Shown here in pieces: positions 40,033-45,539 of a stretch of DNA of 64,000 nucleotides. A program made the translations under genes and the position numbers. Source of the DNA: Paracoccaceae bacterium (GTDB lineage Bacteria > Pseudomonadota > Alphaproteobacteria > Rhodobacterales > Rhodobacteraceae); the NCBI GenBank assembly GCA_026989355.1, contig JALSJM010000005.1:124001-188000 (forward strand). The letters are read 5' to 3'. How positions within the stretch are numbered: the stretch's first letter is position 1; the number at the start of each line of letters is the position of its first letter. The notes beneath the pieces were generated by a model. It was not told the DNA's origin. It searched no databases and saw only the letters and a program-made list of their open reading frames with translations.

Positions 40033-40119
40033 ATGTCGGAAACGGGCTTGCGCAGAATGGCATTCTTTCTGCTGATCGCGCTGATCCTCTATGTTTCGGC
40101 ACAGGCCGGAGGCCACTGA
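40033..40119 (+). CDS. 28-residue membrane microprotein preceding xpaC
   Basis: A short frame (ATG 40033, TGA 40117-40119) encodes a charged N-terminus MSETGLRRM, a single hydrophobic helix (AFFLLIALILYVSA) and a short tail QAGGH. GAGG stands at the right distance before the ATG. The stop overlaps the next start (TGATG), and the ribosome site of xpaC (GGAGG) lies inside its last codons, so translation of the two should be coupled. That coupling and the clean helix make it likely to be real. I do not recognise the protein. Confidence 0.6.
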   Translation: MSETGLRRMAFFLLIALILYVSAQAGGH

Positions 40120-41036
40120 TGGCACGGCGCTATGGCAGAAGATACAGCCCCCCCGACAATAGCGGGGATACCCGTGCGGAGCACCGGTGCACCAACCGCC
40201 GCCCCTGCCGGCGTACGCCCCGGGAACGCTGGGCCAACCTCCTGTTCTTCGCGCCCGTGCCCCTTGCTCTGCAGGCCTTTTCCCAACCGCCCGCGCGGAT
40301 GACCGAGATGCTTTTCGCCTTTTTTCTCCTGGTGCTTGCCGCCTGGCTTGCCCGCGAAGGGCTGGCGGCTGAAGCCGCCTACAATGCCCGCCGGATCGCA
40401 CGTCGCCCGGCCATTCCGCGCAAGATGTTCGCCACCGTTCTGACAGCGGCGGGGCTGTTCGCCGCGGGGACTGCGGCCGGTCAGGGGCTGATGACGCCAA
40501 CCCTTTATGCCCTTCTGGGGGCGGGGCTGCATTTCTTCGCCTTCGGCCCCGATCCGCTGAAGCACAAGGGCATGGATGGCATCGATGCCTTCCAGTCCGA
40601 GCGCGTGGCCCGCGCCCTGGAAGAAGCCGAAAAACTGCTGACAGGAATGACACGGGCTGCCGCGCGGTCCGGCGATCGCGAAATCGAGGCGCGCGTGGTC
40701 CGTTTCCAGGATACCGTGCGCGGCATGTTTCGCACCATCGAGGACGACCCGCGCGACCTGACCGGCGCGCGCCGCTATCTTTCCGTCTATCTGATGGGCG
40801 CGCGCGACGCGGCGGTGAAATTCGCCGATATCCATACCCGCAGCCGCGACATGCAGGCAAAGGCCGATTTCCTGGCGCTTCTGGATGATCTCGAACAGAA
40901 TTTCGCCGCCCGCACCCGTGCCATGCTGCTTGACGACACAAGCGATTTCGAAGTGGAAATCGAGGTTCTGCGCGAACGACTCGCGCGCGAGGGGCTTTCG
41001 GACCTTCCGTCCGGGGCCCGCAATCCGACCGGTTGA
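40119..41036 (+). CDS. xpaC: XpaC-family protein (5-bromo-4-chloroindolyl phosphate hydrolysis family)
   Basis: A 305-residue protein with two to three hydrophobic helices (about 38-78 and 100-140) and a long helical cytoplasmic C-terminal part (YLSVYLMGARDAAVKFADIHTR is a recognisable stretch). The XpaC name derives from an old Bacillus phosphatase assay; the biochemical function is unclear. XpaC is commonly paired with TelA, as here (21-nt gap). A GGAGG precedes the ATG at 40119; the frame extends to 40005 but that part overlaps the microprotein. Confidence 0.82.
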   Translation: MARRYGRRYSPPDNSGDTRAEHRCTNRRPCRRTPRERWANLLFFAPVPLALQAFSQPPARMTEMLFAFFLLVLAAWLAREGLAAEAAYNARRIARRPAIPRKMFATVLTAAGLFAAGTAAGQGLMTPTLYALLGAGLHFFAFGPDPLKHKGMDGIDAFQSERVARALEEAEKLLTGMTRAAARSGDREIEARVVRFQDTVRGMFRTIEDDPRDLTGARRYLSVYLMGARDAAVKFADIHTRSRDMQAKADFLALLDDLEQNFAARTRAMLLDDTSDFEVEIEVLRERLAREGLSDLPSGARNPTG

Positions 41037-41057
41037 CGAGGAAAGGGGAAACACCCG

Positions 41058-42251
41058 ATGCAGGAACAGATCAGACAACAGGCGCTGGAAAGCAGGACCG
41101 AGATCGAAAAACTGGCCGCCGTGGTGCTGCCCGAACCGAAGGAAGACGCGATCACGCTCAAAACCGCGAAAAAGCCGCTTGCCGCCGAAATCCGCAAGCG
41201 AATGCAGGAGCTCGACCTTTCGGACACCGGATCGATCATCAGCTTCGGCAGCCACGCCCAGGCCGAACTTCAGGAAATCAGCCAGTCCATGTTGCAGGGC
41301 GTGCGCAACAAGGATGTGGGCCCCGCCGGCGACAGCCTGCGCGAGATCGTCACCACCATCCGCGGCTTTTCGGTAAGCGAACTCGACATGCGCCGCAAGC
41401 GTTCCTGGTGGGAACGCCTTCTGGGGCGCGCCGCGCCCTTTGCCCAGTTCCTGGCCCGCTACGAACGGGTGCAGGGCCAGATCGACAAGGTGACGGACAA
41501 CCTTCTGAAACACGAGCACAGGCTGCTGAAAGACATCAAGGCGCTCGACAAGCTCTACGAACGCACCCTTGATTTCTACGACGAACTGGCGCTTTACATC
41601 GCCGCCGGCGAGGAAAAGCTGAAGGAACTTGATGAAAAGGACATCCCGGCCCTCGAAAAGGCGGTGGAAAAGGCCCCCGAGAAGAACCAGGTAATGAAGG
41701 CGCAGGAACTGCGCGACCTGCGCGCCGCGCGCGACGATCTCGAACGGCGCGTGCATGACCTGAAGCTCACGCGCCAGGTCACCATGCAGTCGCTGCCCTC
41801 GATCCGCCTTGTGCAGGAAAACGACAAGTCTCTGGTGACCAAGATCAACTCGACATTGGTCAACACCGTGCCGCTGTGGGAACACCAGCTGGCCCAGGCA
41901 GTGGCGATCCAGCGCTCGTCCGAGGCCGCGGCAGCGGTGAAGGATGCCAGCGACCTGACCAACGAACTGCTGACCGCCAACGCCGAAAACCTGCGCCAGG
42001 CCAATCGGGCCGTGCGCGAGGAAATGGAGCGCGGCGTGTTCGATATCGAAGCGGTCAGAAAGGCCAATGCCGAACTGATCGCCACGATCGAGGAAAGCCT
42101 TGCCATCGCCGACGAGGGCAAGCGCAAGCGCGCCGAGGCCGAGGCGGAACTGAAAAAGATGGAAACCGAACTGCGCGATACCCTGAGCGCGGCACGGGCG
42201 CGCGCGCAGCAGGGCGGCGCGGCGGTTTCCGCAACGGCCGGCAGCGAGTAA
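41058..42251 (+). CDS. telA: TelA-family (toxic anion resistance) coiled-coil protein
   Basis: A 397-residue, almost wholly alpha-helical, highly charged protein with no signal peptide or membrane helix. Recognisable TelA features include WWERLLGRAAPFAQFLARYERVQGQID, LKLTRQVTMQSLPSIRLVQENDKSL and NTVPLWEHQLAQAVAI. The family was named for tellurite and other toxic anions, but many members work in membrane stress or cell-envelope processes. It is translated right after xpaC and before a lipoprotein gene. Confidence 0.93.
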   Translation: MQEQIRQQALESRTEIEKLAAVVLPEPKEDAITLKTAKKPLAAEIRKRMQELDLSDTGSIISFGSHAQAELQEISQSMLQGVRNKDVGPAGDSLREIVTTIRGFSVSELDMRRKRSWWERLLGRAAPFAQFLARYERVQGQIDKVTDNLLKHEHRLLKDIKALDKLYERTLDFYDELALYIAAGEEKLKELDEKDIPALEKAVEKAPEKNQVMKAQELRDLRAARDDLERRVHDLKLTRQVTMQSLPSIRLVQENDKSLVTKINSTLVNTVPLWEHQLAQAVAIQRSSEAAAAVKDASDLTNELLTANAENLRQANRAVREEMERGVFDIEAVRKANAELIATIEESLAIADEGKRKRAEAEAELKKMETELRDTLSAARARAQQGGAAVSATAGSE

Positions 42252-42255
42252 GCCC

Positions 42256-43215
42256 ATGCGGTGGCGGGGGCACGGCACAAAGGGCCTGCTGGCTGCAGCA
42301 GCGGCGCTGGCGCTGAGCGGCTGCGAACTGCTTGCCCCGCCCCCGCCCGAGGCCGCGCCCAGGCCGCGCGCGCCCGAAGCCCCGAAGCCCGCACCGCCCA
42401 GCCAGAGCCAGCAAAGCCGCCTGCTTGCCGCCTATTACCAGCGCGTGCAGGACGATCTTCTGGCCCTCGGCCTGCTGCGTCAGGGCGGCGGCGGGCCGGA
42501 CACGCCCTTCTCGGCCCGCCAGCTGGCCGAAAACTTCACCCGTATTGCGCTTTACGACGAGTTCACAATCGAAAACGGGCGCGTGTCGCAACGCGAAACC
42601 CCAAGCCGCCTGCGCCGCTGGGAACAGCCGGTGCGCCTGCGCCTGATCTACAGCCGAACCATGCCGCATGCCCGGCACCTGAAGGACCGCGCCATCCTTC
42701 AGGCCTATGCGGCCCGCCTTTCGCGGCTGACCGACCTGCCTGTCCGGCTGGTCCCGCAAGGGGGCAACTTTCATGTGCTGATCCTTGACGAAGACGAACG
42801 CCGCGCCGTGGGGCCGCTGGTGCGCAAGCTGGTACCGGGGGTTGGCAACGGGGTGCTGCGGGCCATCACCGACATGCCGCGCGATACCCGTTGTCTGGTC
42901 TTCGCCTTTCCCGAAGCAACCGGCTCCAACCGCTATGCCAGCGCCATCGCCGTGATCCGGGCCGAACATCCCGACCTGCTGCGCATCGCCTGCATCCACG
43001 AGGAAATCGCCCAGGGGCTGGGCCTGGCCAATGACAGCCCGCATGCACGGCCATCGATCTTCAATGACGACGAAGAATTCGGCCGCCTCACCACGATGGA
43101 CGAACTGATGCTGAAGATGCTTTACGACAAGCGCCTGCGGCCGGGAATGACGCCGGAACAGGCGCGTCCGATCGTCGAGCGGATTGCCCGCGAACTGACG
43201 GGCGGAAGCGCATGA
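42256..43215 (+). CDS. DUF2927 lipoprotein
   Basis: A 319-residue protein with a lipobox (ALALSGC) after a short hydrophobic stretch, a proline-rich linker, and a C-terminal domain I associate with DUF2927. That domain includes IACIHEEIAQGLGLANDSP, an HE-containing helix that looks like a zinc-protease active site but lacks a confirmed third ligand. It should sit on the periplasmic face of the inner or outer membrane. It lies 4 nt after telA and is the only extracytoplasmic member of the cluster. Confidence 0.75.
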   Translation: MRWRGHGTKGLLAAAAALALSGCELLAPPPPEAAPRPRAPEAPKPAPPSQSQQSRLLAAYYQRVQDDLLALGLLRQGGGGPDTPFSARQLAENFTRIALYDEFTIENGRVSQRETPSRLRRWEQPVRLRLIYSRTMPHARHLKDRAILQAYAARLSRLTDLPVRLVPQGGNFHVLILDEDERRAVGPLVRKLVPGVGNGVLRAITDMPRDTRCLVFAFPEATGSNRYASAIAVIRAEHPDLLRIACIHEEIAQGLGLANDSPHARPSIFNDDEEFGRLTTMDELMLKMLYDKRLRPGMTPEQARPIVERIARELTGGSA

Positions 43216-43277
43216 ACGGCCACGAAACACCCCCCCGCCCGAAGGCGGCGGATGCAAAGTGCAAAGGAAATGAAGCG

Positions 43278-44438
43278 ATGGGTATTCTCGATTTTCTGAC
43301 CGGCGAATTCATCGATGTCATCCACTGGACGGACGACACCCGCGATACCATGGTGTGGCGTTTCGAGCGCGAAGGCCATGAAATCAAGTATGGTGCCAAG
43401 CTGACGGTGCGCGAAGGCCAGGCGGCGGTATTCGTGCACGAAGGGGTGATCGCCGATGTATTCACCCCCGGTCTCTATTTCCTTGAAACCAACAACATGC
43501 CGGTGCTCACCACACTGCAACACTGGGATCACGGCTTCCGCTCGCCCTTCAAGTCGGAAATCTACTTCGTGAACACCACCCGTTTCGGCAATCGGAAGTG
43601 GGGCACCAGAAACCCGGTGATCCTGCGTGATCCCGAATTCGGTCCGATGCGCATCCGCGCCTATGGCACCTATGCGATCAAGGTCACCGATCCGGCGCTG
43701 TTCCTGCGCGAAATCGTCGGCACCGACGGCGAATTCACCATGGACGAGATCAGCTTCCAGATCCGCAACATCATCGTCCAGGAATTTTCGCGGGTGATCG
43801 CGCAAAGCGGCATTCCGGTGCTCGACATGGCCGCCAATACCGACGAACTGGGCAAGATCGTTGCCGAACAGATCTCGGGAACGCTGGCACAATACGGCCT
43901 TTCCATCCCCGAGCTCTATGTCGAGAACATCAGCCTGCCGGCAGCGGTCGAGGACGCACTCGACAAACGCAGTTCAATGGGCGTGATCGGCGACCTGCGC
44001 CGCTATACCGAATTTTCGGTAGGCGAGGCGCTGAATGCTTCCGGCGGCACGATCGGAGCGGGGCTTGGCGCGGGAATGGGCATCGGCATGGGAATGGCCG
44101 CCGGCACCCAGATGGCGGGGCAGGCTGCCCCCGGCCTCTGGGGCCCCTGGGGCACGCGGCCCGCCGCCAGCCCCCCGGCGGAAACCGCCGTTGCCGGCGC
44201 AGGCGCCCTGCCGCCGCCGCCCCCGCCGGCGGTTGAAAGGCTGTGGCACATCGCCGAAAACGGCAAGAGCCATGGCCCCTACTCGCGCGCGGCCCTGGGG
44301 CGGATGGCGAATGAGGGTGCGCTTTCGCGCGATACCCTTGTCTGGAGCGCCGGGCTTGACGGCTGGCAACGGGCCGGCGACATTACCGAACTGGCCCAAC
44401 TGTTCACGGTGCTGCCCCCGCCCCCGCCCGAAAGCTGA
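43278..44438 (+). CDS. SPFH-domain protein with C-terminal GYF_2 domain
   Basis: A 386-residue protein of the YdjI-like SPFH (stomatin/flotillin-related) group starting MGILDFLTGEFIDVIHW. Residues 1-250 form the SPFH part (KLTVREGQAAVFVHEG, DPEFGPMRIRAYGTYAIKV). A Gly-rich GAGLGAGMGIGMGM linker and Pro-rich stretch lead to a GYF_2 domain (about 325-380, LWHIAENGKSHGPYSRAALG). SPFH proteins form membrane-associated oligomers. The ATG at 43278 with AAAGGAAA is preferred over 43212, which overlaps the upstream stop by ATGA. Confidence 0.85.
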   Translation: MGILDFLTGEFIDVIHWTDDTRDTMVWRFEREGHEIKYGAKLTVREGQAAVFVHEGVIADVFTPGLYFLETNNMPVLTTLQHWDHGFRSPFKSEIYFVNTTRFGNRKWGTRNPVILRDPEFGPMRIRAYGTYAIKVTDPALFLREIVGTDGEFTMDEISFQIRNIIVQEFSRVIAQSGIPVLDMAANTDELGKIVAEQISGTLAQYGLSIPELYVENISLPAAVEDALDKRSSMGVIGDLRRYTEFSVGEALNASGGTIGAGLGAGMGIGMGMAAGTQMAGQAAPGLWGPWGTRPAASPPAETAVAGAGALPPPPPPAVERLWHIAENGKSHGPYSRAALGRMANEGALSRDTLVWSAGLDGWQRAGDITELAQLFTVLPPPPPES

Positions 44439-44444
44439 GCCGGC

Positions 44445-45539
44445 ATGAAACGGGCGGCCGAGGAACACCGCTTTCCCTGCGATGCCTGCGGATCGGACCT
44501 GCGGTTCGATCCGGCCGAAGGCGTGCTGCAGTGCGACCACTGCGGCAACCGGCAACCCATCACGCGCGGCTTCTGGCAGGGCGGCGCGCTGCGCGAACGG
44601 GATTTCCGCGAGGCACTGCTGAAGATCTCGGACAAGGCCGAGCTGCAGGAAACCCGTTACGTCACCTGCACAAACTGCGGTGCGCGGATCGAGATGACCG
44701 GCCCCGACCACGCCCTCGAATGCCCCTTCTGCGCCACCCCCATCGTGGCCGATTCCGGCACCTTCCGCCAGATCCGGCCACACGGCCTGCTGCCCTTCGC
44801 CCTTACCGAACGCCAGGCCCGGCGCGCCATGAACGAATGGCTGGGCAGCCTGTGGTTCGCGCCATCCGGGCTGCAGCGCTATGCCCGCAAGGGGCGGCGG
44901 ATGCGGGGCGTCTATGTGCCCTACTGGACCTATGACGCCAGCACCAGAACCCGCTATCGCGGCATGCGCGGCACCGTTCATCACGAAAGCCGCACCGTCA
45001 CCCGCAACGGGCGCCGCGAAACGGTGCGCGTGGCAAGAATTCGCTGGGCTCCGGTCAGCGGCCGCGTGGCACGTTTCTTCGACGATATCCTGGTGCTGGC
45101 CTCGCGCACCCTGCCCCGCCGCCATACCCAGGCGCTGGAACCCTGGGATCTTTCGGCCCTCGAACCCTATAACCCGCAATATCTGGCCGGCTTCGCTGCC
45201 GAGGGCTATACCGTGCCCCTTGACGAGGGATTCGCCGAAGCCCGCGCCTTCATGGACCGGATGATCGCGCGCGACGTGAAATTCGACATCGGTGGCGACC
45301 GCCAGCGCATCACCGAACTTGATACCGCAGTTTCCGACATTACCTTCAAGCATGTCCTGCTGCCGGTATGGCTGGCCGCCTACAGGTATCGGGGCAAGTC
45401 ATACCGCTTCGTGGTCAACGGGCGCTCGGGGCAGGTGCAGGGCGAACGGCCCTGGTCGGTCTGGAAGATCGCCCTTGCGCTGCTTGCGCTGGCGGTGGTT
45501 GCCGGCGCGATCGGCTGGTTTGCGGCCATGCAGCAGTGA
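44445..45539 (+). CDS. Zinc-ribbon membrane protein, YdjG-like
   Basis: A 364-residue protein with two zinc ribbons near the N-terminus (CDACG...CDHCG and CTNCG...CPFC), a central beta-rich domain (VYVPYWTYDASTRTRYRGM) and one C-terminal transmembrane helix (KIALALLALAVVAGAIGWFAA). Similar proteins are often misannotated as primosomal or helicase-related because of the zinc ribbon; no helicase motif exists. In Bacillus subtilis the ydjFGHI operon joins PspA, a zinc-ribbon protein and an SPFH protein at the membrane. Last gene of the XpaC-TelA cluster. Confidence 0.8.
   Translation: MKRAAEEHRFPCDACGSDLRFDPAEGVLQCDHCGNRQPITRGFWQGGALRERDFREALLKISDKAELQETRYVTCTNCGARIEMTGPDHALECPFCATPIVADSGTFRQIRPHGLLPFALTERQARRAMNEWLGSLWFAPSGLQRYARKGRRMRGVYVPYWTYDASTRTRYRGMRGTVHHESRTVTRNGRRETVRVARIRWAPVSGRVARFFDDILVLASRTLPRRHTQALEPWDLSALEPYNPQYLAGFAAEGYTVPLDEGFAEARAFMDRMIARDVKFDIGGDRQRITELDTAVSDITFKHVLLPVWLAAYRYRGKSYRFVVNGRSGQVQGERPWSVWKIALALLALAVVAGAIGWFAAMQQ

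Follow-up and report, generated by a model that had tools for sequence, protein, structure and literature searches.

The subject of this report is a cluster of six genes at positions 40033-45539 of a 64,000-nucleotide stretch of DNA from a Paracoccaceae bacterium (positions 124,001 to 188,000 of contig JALSJM010000005.1, forward strand), which we call the window. Four of the genes encode an XpaC family protein, a TelA protein, an SPFH protein of the YdjI type and a double zinc-ribbon protein (ZnR). In the order XpaC-TelA-SPFH-ZnR they are a conserved unit whose arrangement is beyond chance: the four are co-inherited and co-ordered over families, and genomes gain or lose TelA and SPFH jointly. 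XpaC-TelA pairs and SPFH/zinc-ribbon couples were known before; their joining in one module is a new variant. The cluster also contains a microprotein gene, in front of xpaC, and a gene for a DUF2927 lipoprotein, between those for TelA and SPFH.

For the class-wide survey, 385 alphaproteobacterial genomes were searched, with a score above 240 bits denoting a strong YdjI-type SPFH. TelA exceeded its cut-off in 32 of these genomes and a strong YdjI-type SPFH was found in 17, of which 16 also carry TelA (Fisher p = 1.2e-18, or 2.9e-13 with the home family excluded; phylogeny is ignored in all Fisher values given for this sample and for the one that follows). The two genes are neighbors in 12 genomes spanning six families. 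All seven adjacent cases beyond the Rhodobacteraceae, which come from five families, have the order XpaC-TelA-SPFH-ZnR with ZnR in an identical position, and the flanks of these seven loci are unrelated from family to family. A second sample consisted of 63 whole genomes, each from a different Rhodobacteraceae genus. The same 55 genera were positive for TelA and for YdjI-type SPFH, and the same eight were negative for both (Fisher p = 2.6e-10). TelA and SPFH lie no more than 3 kb apart on the same strand in 52 of the 55 positive genomes; the remaining three retain both, separated. An earlier reading of the window, made from its letters only (the sequence-only reading), had proposed that both pairs are joined in one module. 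Synteny past close relatives, in six alphaproteobacterial families with unrelated flanks, bears this out, as does the co-retention of TelA and SPFH across 63 genera.

Rhodobacteraceae loci were collected separately by scanning genome contigs with a TelA alignment, which yielded 80 loci (L014-L093). Every one of them has DUF2927 and SPFH; XpaC was detected at 79 and ZnR at 70, with contig ends truncating several loci. Gene order is identical throughout, save for one inverted SPFH match at the edge of a locus, and rluB lies beside the module in 66 of the 80. Some rearranged or additional copies were also encountered. On the 1.46-Mb plasmid pFER4 of Paracoccus ferrooxidans (L152), the module has been relocated and reads TelA-DUF2927-SPFH-ZnR-carbohydrate kinase, with no XpaC detected. 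Another genome has an additional XpaC-TelA pair (L004, G064:C289) whose TelA gene contains an in-frame TAG. In a further Rhodobacteraceae genome, G334 (contig C19, locus L205), the microprotein, XpaC and TelA have been lost together and a TerC gene directly precedes DUF2927. No YdjI-type SPFH was found in that genome, where DUF2927 ends near a contig edge.

All six genes of the window are on the plus strand, as the sequence-only reading had them, with intergenic gaps of -1, 21, 4, 62 and 6 nucleotides, in order, and with their Pfam families confirmed. From this spacing alone we infer a single transcript; consensus scans of the locus found no sigma-70-like promoter and no plus-strand terminator-like site. 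The PF10112 family, to which XpaC belongs, carries the current Pfam name Halogen_Hydrol. The XpaC gene (40119..41036, 305 amino acids; Pfam 2.2e-25) scores 90.2 bits against a cut-off of 29.8, and its product has hydrophobic segments at the N-terminus and a helical domain at residues 109-284. TelA (41058..42251, 397 amino acids) is above the curated cut-off for PF05816, toxic anion resistance (Pfam 5e-110), and covers nearly the full domain (profile positions 3-331 of 332). The SPFH/Band_7_1 protein (43278..44438, 386 amino acids; PF13421, Pfam 4.3e-99) ends, after a proline-rich linker, in a GYF_2 domain (44244-44393; Pfam 6.2e-20); an alternative upstream start at 43212 would overlap the DUF2927 gene. 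ZnR (44445..45539, 364 amino acids) is assigned from its cysteines, which make up two CxxC...CxxC sets (ribbons C12-C33 and C75-C96), and from weak Pfam zinc-ribbon matches, below threshold; a hydrophobic segment spans approximately residues 339-361 at the C-terminus, and the central domain has an unassigned fold. The locus has what defines a ydj-type couple, namely a PF13421 SPFH gene followed by a gene for a two-zinc-ribbon protein with a membrane segment, and core loci retain this pair throughout.

The first gene (40033..40119, plus strand) is an open reading frame (ORF) for a predicted single-pass membrane microprotein of 28 amino acids, MSETGLRRMAFFLLIALILYVSAQAGGH, and its stop codon overlaps the ATG of XpaC by 1 nucleotide. 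Candidates in other loci were defined as hydrophobic ORFs of 20-60 amino acids ending no more than 12 nucleotides from a candidate XpaC start. Such an ORF overlaps or abuts xpaC in 76 of 78 Rhodobacteraceae loci; in controls, a comparable ORF precedes TelA in 0 of 79, SPFH in 0 of 80, DUF2927 in 0 of 80 and ZnR in 10 of 68 cases. The aligned microproteins share the core L-Q-K-x-[AS]-[FY]-x-x-L, with one leucine invariant in 77, and codon positions 1, 2 and 3 differ at 0.46, 0.30 and 0.59, the pattern expected of coding DNA. Conservation, controls and codon pattern together rule out a chance ORF. Judged by these sequence features, the microprotein gene is genuine, conserved and locked to xpaC, and its earlier inclusion in the module was warranted. 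Short hydrophobic ORFs directly before XpaC also occur beyond the Rhodobacteraceae (L158, L159 and L160). At 24-30 amino acids the microprotein is below the length that gene finders usually report, and a gene found Rhodobacteraceae-wide has been overlooked.

DUF2927 (42256..43215, plus strand, 319 amino acids; PF11150, Pfam 1.1e-58) is a predicted lipoprotein with the lipobox LSGC at residues 20-23. The family is one of unassigned function: a literature search found no mention of it, and a sequence search of solved structures with this protein gave no match. An AlphaFold2 model built from 77 sequences is confident, with a mean predicted local distance difference test score (pLDDT) of 90.8. When this model was compared with the Protein Data Bank using Foldseek, all 50 matches listed were metzincins, mostly catalytic domains of matrix metalloproteinases (best E 2.1e-3, probability 1.00, target-normalised TM-score up to 0.66). 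The model thus points to a metzincin-like fold, for which the Foldseek support is good, not overwhelming. DUF2927 resembles the metzincins in its predicted fold, in an active-site helix ending at a conserved glycine and in the position of the general-base glutamate. It differs from them in that all three zinc-binding histidines are replaced (E249, Q253 and N259), the helix reading E249-E250-x-x-Q253-x-x-G256-x-x-N259-D260 in place of the metzincin HExxHxxGxxH. This motif, EExxQxxGxxND (residues 249-260, 43000..43035, plus strand), is EEIAQGLGLAND in the window. E249, E250, Q253, G256 and D260 are invariant among 77 Rhodobacteraceae homologues, and 30 of 31 homologues in a wider sample carry the motif; a HExxHxxGxxH/D zinc site is absent from the 77 aligned members and from those 30. 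The sole departure, L208:1234-2190 of genome G328, reads EELAQGLVLAND, with glycine changed to valine, at a locus that looks intact. Because the altered site is conserved, normal zinc peptidase activity is unlikely on sequence grounds, and DUF2927 as an active zinc protease was rejected with the zinc ligands replaced throughout. The conserved residues probably mark a binding site. The family so gains a predicted metzincin-like fold and an altered metal site conserved in the wider sample.

Inclusion of the DUF2927 lipoprotein as a module part holds in part. It stands for the Rhodobacteraceae, where all 80 loci have the gene, and fails for the seven core loci of other families, in none of which DUF2927 was found; DUF2927 is a Rhodobacteraceae add-on, outside the class-wide core. 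Note also that most Rhodobacteraceae genomes sampled have a second DUF2927 copy, that of the home genome being located at G000:C13:78387-78992, within a long ORF.

Two known systems are among the closest to the module. In Bacillus subtilis, a link of SPFH, zinc-ribbon protein and PspA to the membrane is experimentally supported (PMC8581546, PMC11237479), and the SPFH protein YdjI uses membrane partners to draw a cytoplasmic effector onto the membrane, a recruitment demonstrated for this species alone (PMC8581546). The earlier comparison with the ydj operon, as one in which SPFH and zinc-ribbon membrane proteins occur with PspA, agrees with these papers. Like pspA-ydjGHI, the window has a YdjI-type SPFH (PF13421) adjoining a protein that combines two zinc ribbons with a membrane segment, in a small same-strand operon, which in Bacillus has an envelope-stress context (PMC8581546, PMC9239133, PMC11237479). 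Unlike pspA-ydjGHI, it has XpaC-TelA at the place of PspA, together with the added microprotein and DUF2927, and shows no separate gene for a counterpart of YdjH, the TPM-domain partner. The likeness between ZnR and YdjG concerns the zinc ribbons and the membrane segment. The XpaC-TelA half is matched by Firmicutes pairs (xpaC-yaaN, lmo1966-lmo1967 and llmg_1115-telA1), in which XpaC and TelA genes are likewise adjacent; here, by contrast, the pair shares an operon with SPFH-ZnR and the membrane microprotein, and the host is an alphaproteobacterium. The Firmicutes pairs are induced by cell-envelope stress (PMC12791056, PMC3139573). Disruption of the Listeria telA gene, lmo1967, was reported to cause sensitivity to nisin and tellurite (PMC12791056), and in Lactococcus lactis the XpaC- and telA-like genes (telA1) are up under the stress of membrane-protein overproduction (PMC3139573).

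We propose that the core XpaC-TelA-SPFH-ZnR may be one functional unit protecting the inner membrane in envelope or oxyanion stress, a reading for which we consider the chances to be about even. XpaC, in the inner membrane, would anchor the cytoplasmic TelA with its long helices. On the inner face of the membrane the SPFH protein would oligomerise, and ZnR would hold it there by means of the C-terminal membrane segment of ZnR, in the way that YdjG/H do for YdjI in Bacillus. Joined, the two halves would make up one scaffold by which damaged membrane is stabilised. XpaC may be tuned by the microprotein, and the periplasmic lipoprotein DUF2927 may serve not as a peptidase but as a sensor or scaffold that binds a ligand or metal. 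The module would then act like PspA-YdjGHI, with TelA as cytoplasmic helical effector, yet would be no phage shock protein (PSP) system. Phenotype support for a stress role is by analogy and comes from relatives only (Listeria, R. sphaeroides and Lactococcus). The fullest version of the proposal is a PspA-independent alphaproteobacterial membrane-maintenance machine with TelA as helical effector, an SPFH scaffold, a zinc-ribbon anchor, XpaC with a translationally coupled 28-amino-acid microprotein, and DUF2927 as a pseudo-metzincin of a new class (EExxQxxGxxND) reporting on the periplasm; this we offer tentatively, as a picture that we think distinctly less likely than not.

PspA itself (PF04012) had been said to be absent, and indeed no match was found in the operon or in the rest of the home genome, which leaves the locus without the PspA/Vipp1 that marks a PSP system. 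PspA is present in 63 of the 385 genomes, including three of the 12 module genomes, and is never near the module. The idea that the module is a PspA replacement was dropped, since PspA presence shows no anticorrelation with the module over the 385 genomes. Nor is TelA supported as a relative of PspA/ESCRT-III by profile comparison or by a weak model with no PspA among the matches that Foldseek listed; "TelA replaces PspA" remains a functional analogy. Sequence searches of solved structures gave no match for TelA, and for the SPFH protein the sole match was to a gliding protein, in its GYF region. A literature search found no paper joining TelA with SPFH. The strict co-retention of the two gives TelA a named partner system and, by analogy with PspA-YdjI, a membrane-scaffold hypothesis.

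Several observations weigh against a single membrane-protecting unit. The AlphaFold2 model of TelA is all-helical (helices 127-205 and 208-324) with a mean pLDDT of 68.3; with this low-confidence model Foldseek found no significant match, its list of 50 consisting of generic long-helix proteins and not including PspA, and comparison of the TelA profile with a shallow PspA profile gave a probability of 0.2%. Order within the Rhodobacteraceae is weak evidence, because flanking genes (rluB, pfkB) are largely syntenic too. TelA and SPFH are linked, so that one deletion could suffice for their co-loss, and the eight genera without them may not be independent. SPFH-ZnR occurs without adjacent TelA in G432, G600 and G510, and many genomes carry TelA by itself. 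These last cases, along with SPFH-ZnR on plasmids and the lone TelA of most other genomes, are what would be expected if XpaC-TelA and SPFH-ZnR were two independent pairs that, with the lipoprotein, merely share an operon. We regard such an arrangement as improbable: presence and absence of TelA and SPFH are identical over the 63 genera, including the three genomes in which both are kept apart, and their adjacency recurs in six families with different flanks. An anti-phage defence system is far less probable still. SPFH and membrane proteins are known from some defence systems, but PADLOC gave no meaningful match for any component, nothing credible came from it to identify a known system, and the module is retained vertically, in stable order and single copy, rather than patchily in islands.

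Two further members, frequent in relatives, had been overlooked by the sequence-only reading. TerC is a manganese transporter or a metal chaperone of the Sec translocon. Of the loci L014-L093, 30 carry a TerC gene (PF03741; for example L057:5085-5987) on the same strand, in the interval from rluB to the microprotein and 18-215 nucleotides upstream of the latter. In about 26 Rhodobacteraceae loci (for example L022:10399-10992, L057:10365-10841 and L044:11392-11814), SPFH and ZnR are separated by one or two membrane genes resembling cytochrome b561; these are of three sequence types, two above the PF01292 cut-off and the third merely similar, below it. The position of TerC would fit a module for metal export or metalation, in which XpaC-TelA, DUF2927 and TerC handle the delivery or clearance of metal at the membrane, with SPFH as the scaffold. 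Consistent with this, G334 has lost XpaC-TelA yet retains adjacent TerC and DUF2927 genes, and TerC proteins of B. subtilis metalate exported enzymes and flotillins co-purify (PMC10550928). The home genome, however, has no TerC anywhere and an intact module, and the seven core loci of other families showed no neighboring TerC, so we think this explanation rather unlikely.

TelA proteins take their name from tellurite resistance, and both the R. sphaeroides telA locus and RK2 kilA-telA-telB (klaABC) share the TelA family with the module, a family link being what ties the module to oxyanion-resistance determinants; the R. sphaeroides gene is presumably the same gene as the module TelA, in the same broad group. 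It is listed among tellurite-resistance determinants, the sole function described for it in the review concerned (PMC6955997). A system dedicated to resisting tellurite or other toxic oxyanions, with TelA and XpaC shielding the membrane and the remainder accessory, would also accord with the wide spread of plasmid telA/klaB genes, and the cytochrome-b561-like genes of some loci could supply electrons for reduction. Plasmid tellurite TelAs are distant, however, sharing just about 24-28% identity with the module TelA, and the Listeria lmo1967 mutant is sensitive to nisin as well (PMC12791056). TelA is also retained vertically in 55 of the 63 Rhodobacteraceae genera, and this near-universal retention suggests a housekeeping stress role; a dedicated tellurite system has in our view only a small chance of being the right explanation.

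The host genome, of 2.59 Mb, has one TelA. On its 5' side the locus adjoins a same-strand S4/pseudouridine-synthase gene; on its 3' side are a PfkB kinase gene and an Hsp20 gene, the latter in the opposite orientation. An open frame of 729 amino acids runs antisense to the microprotein, XpaC and TelA genes (40089-42278, minus strand); we interpret it as a shadow ORF in GC-rich coding DNA rather than as a gene.

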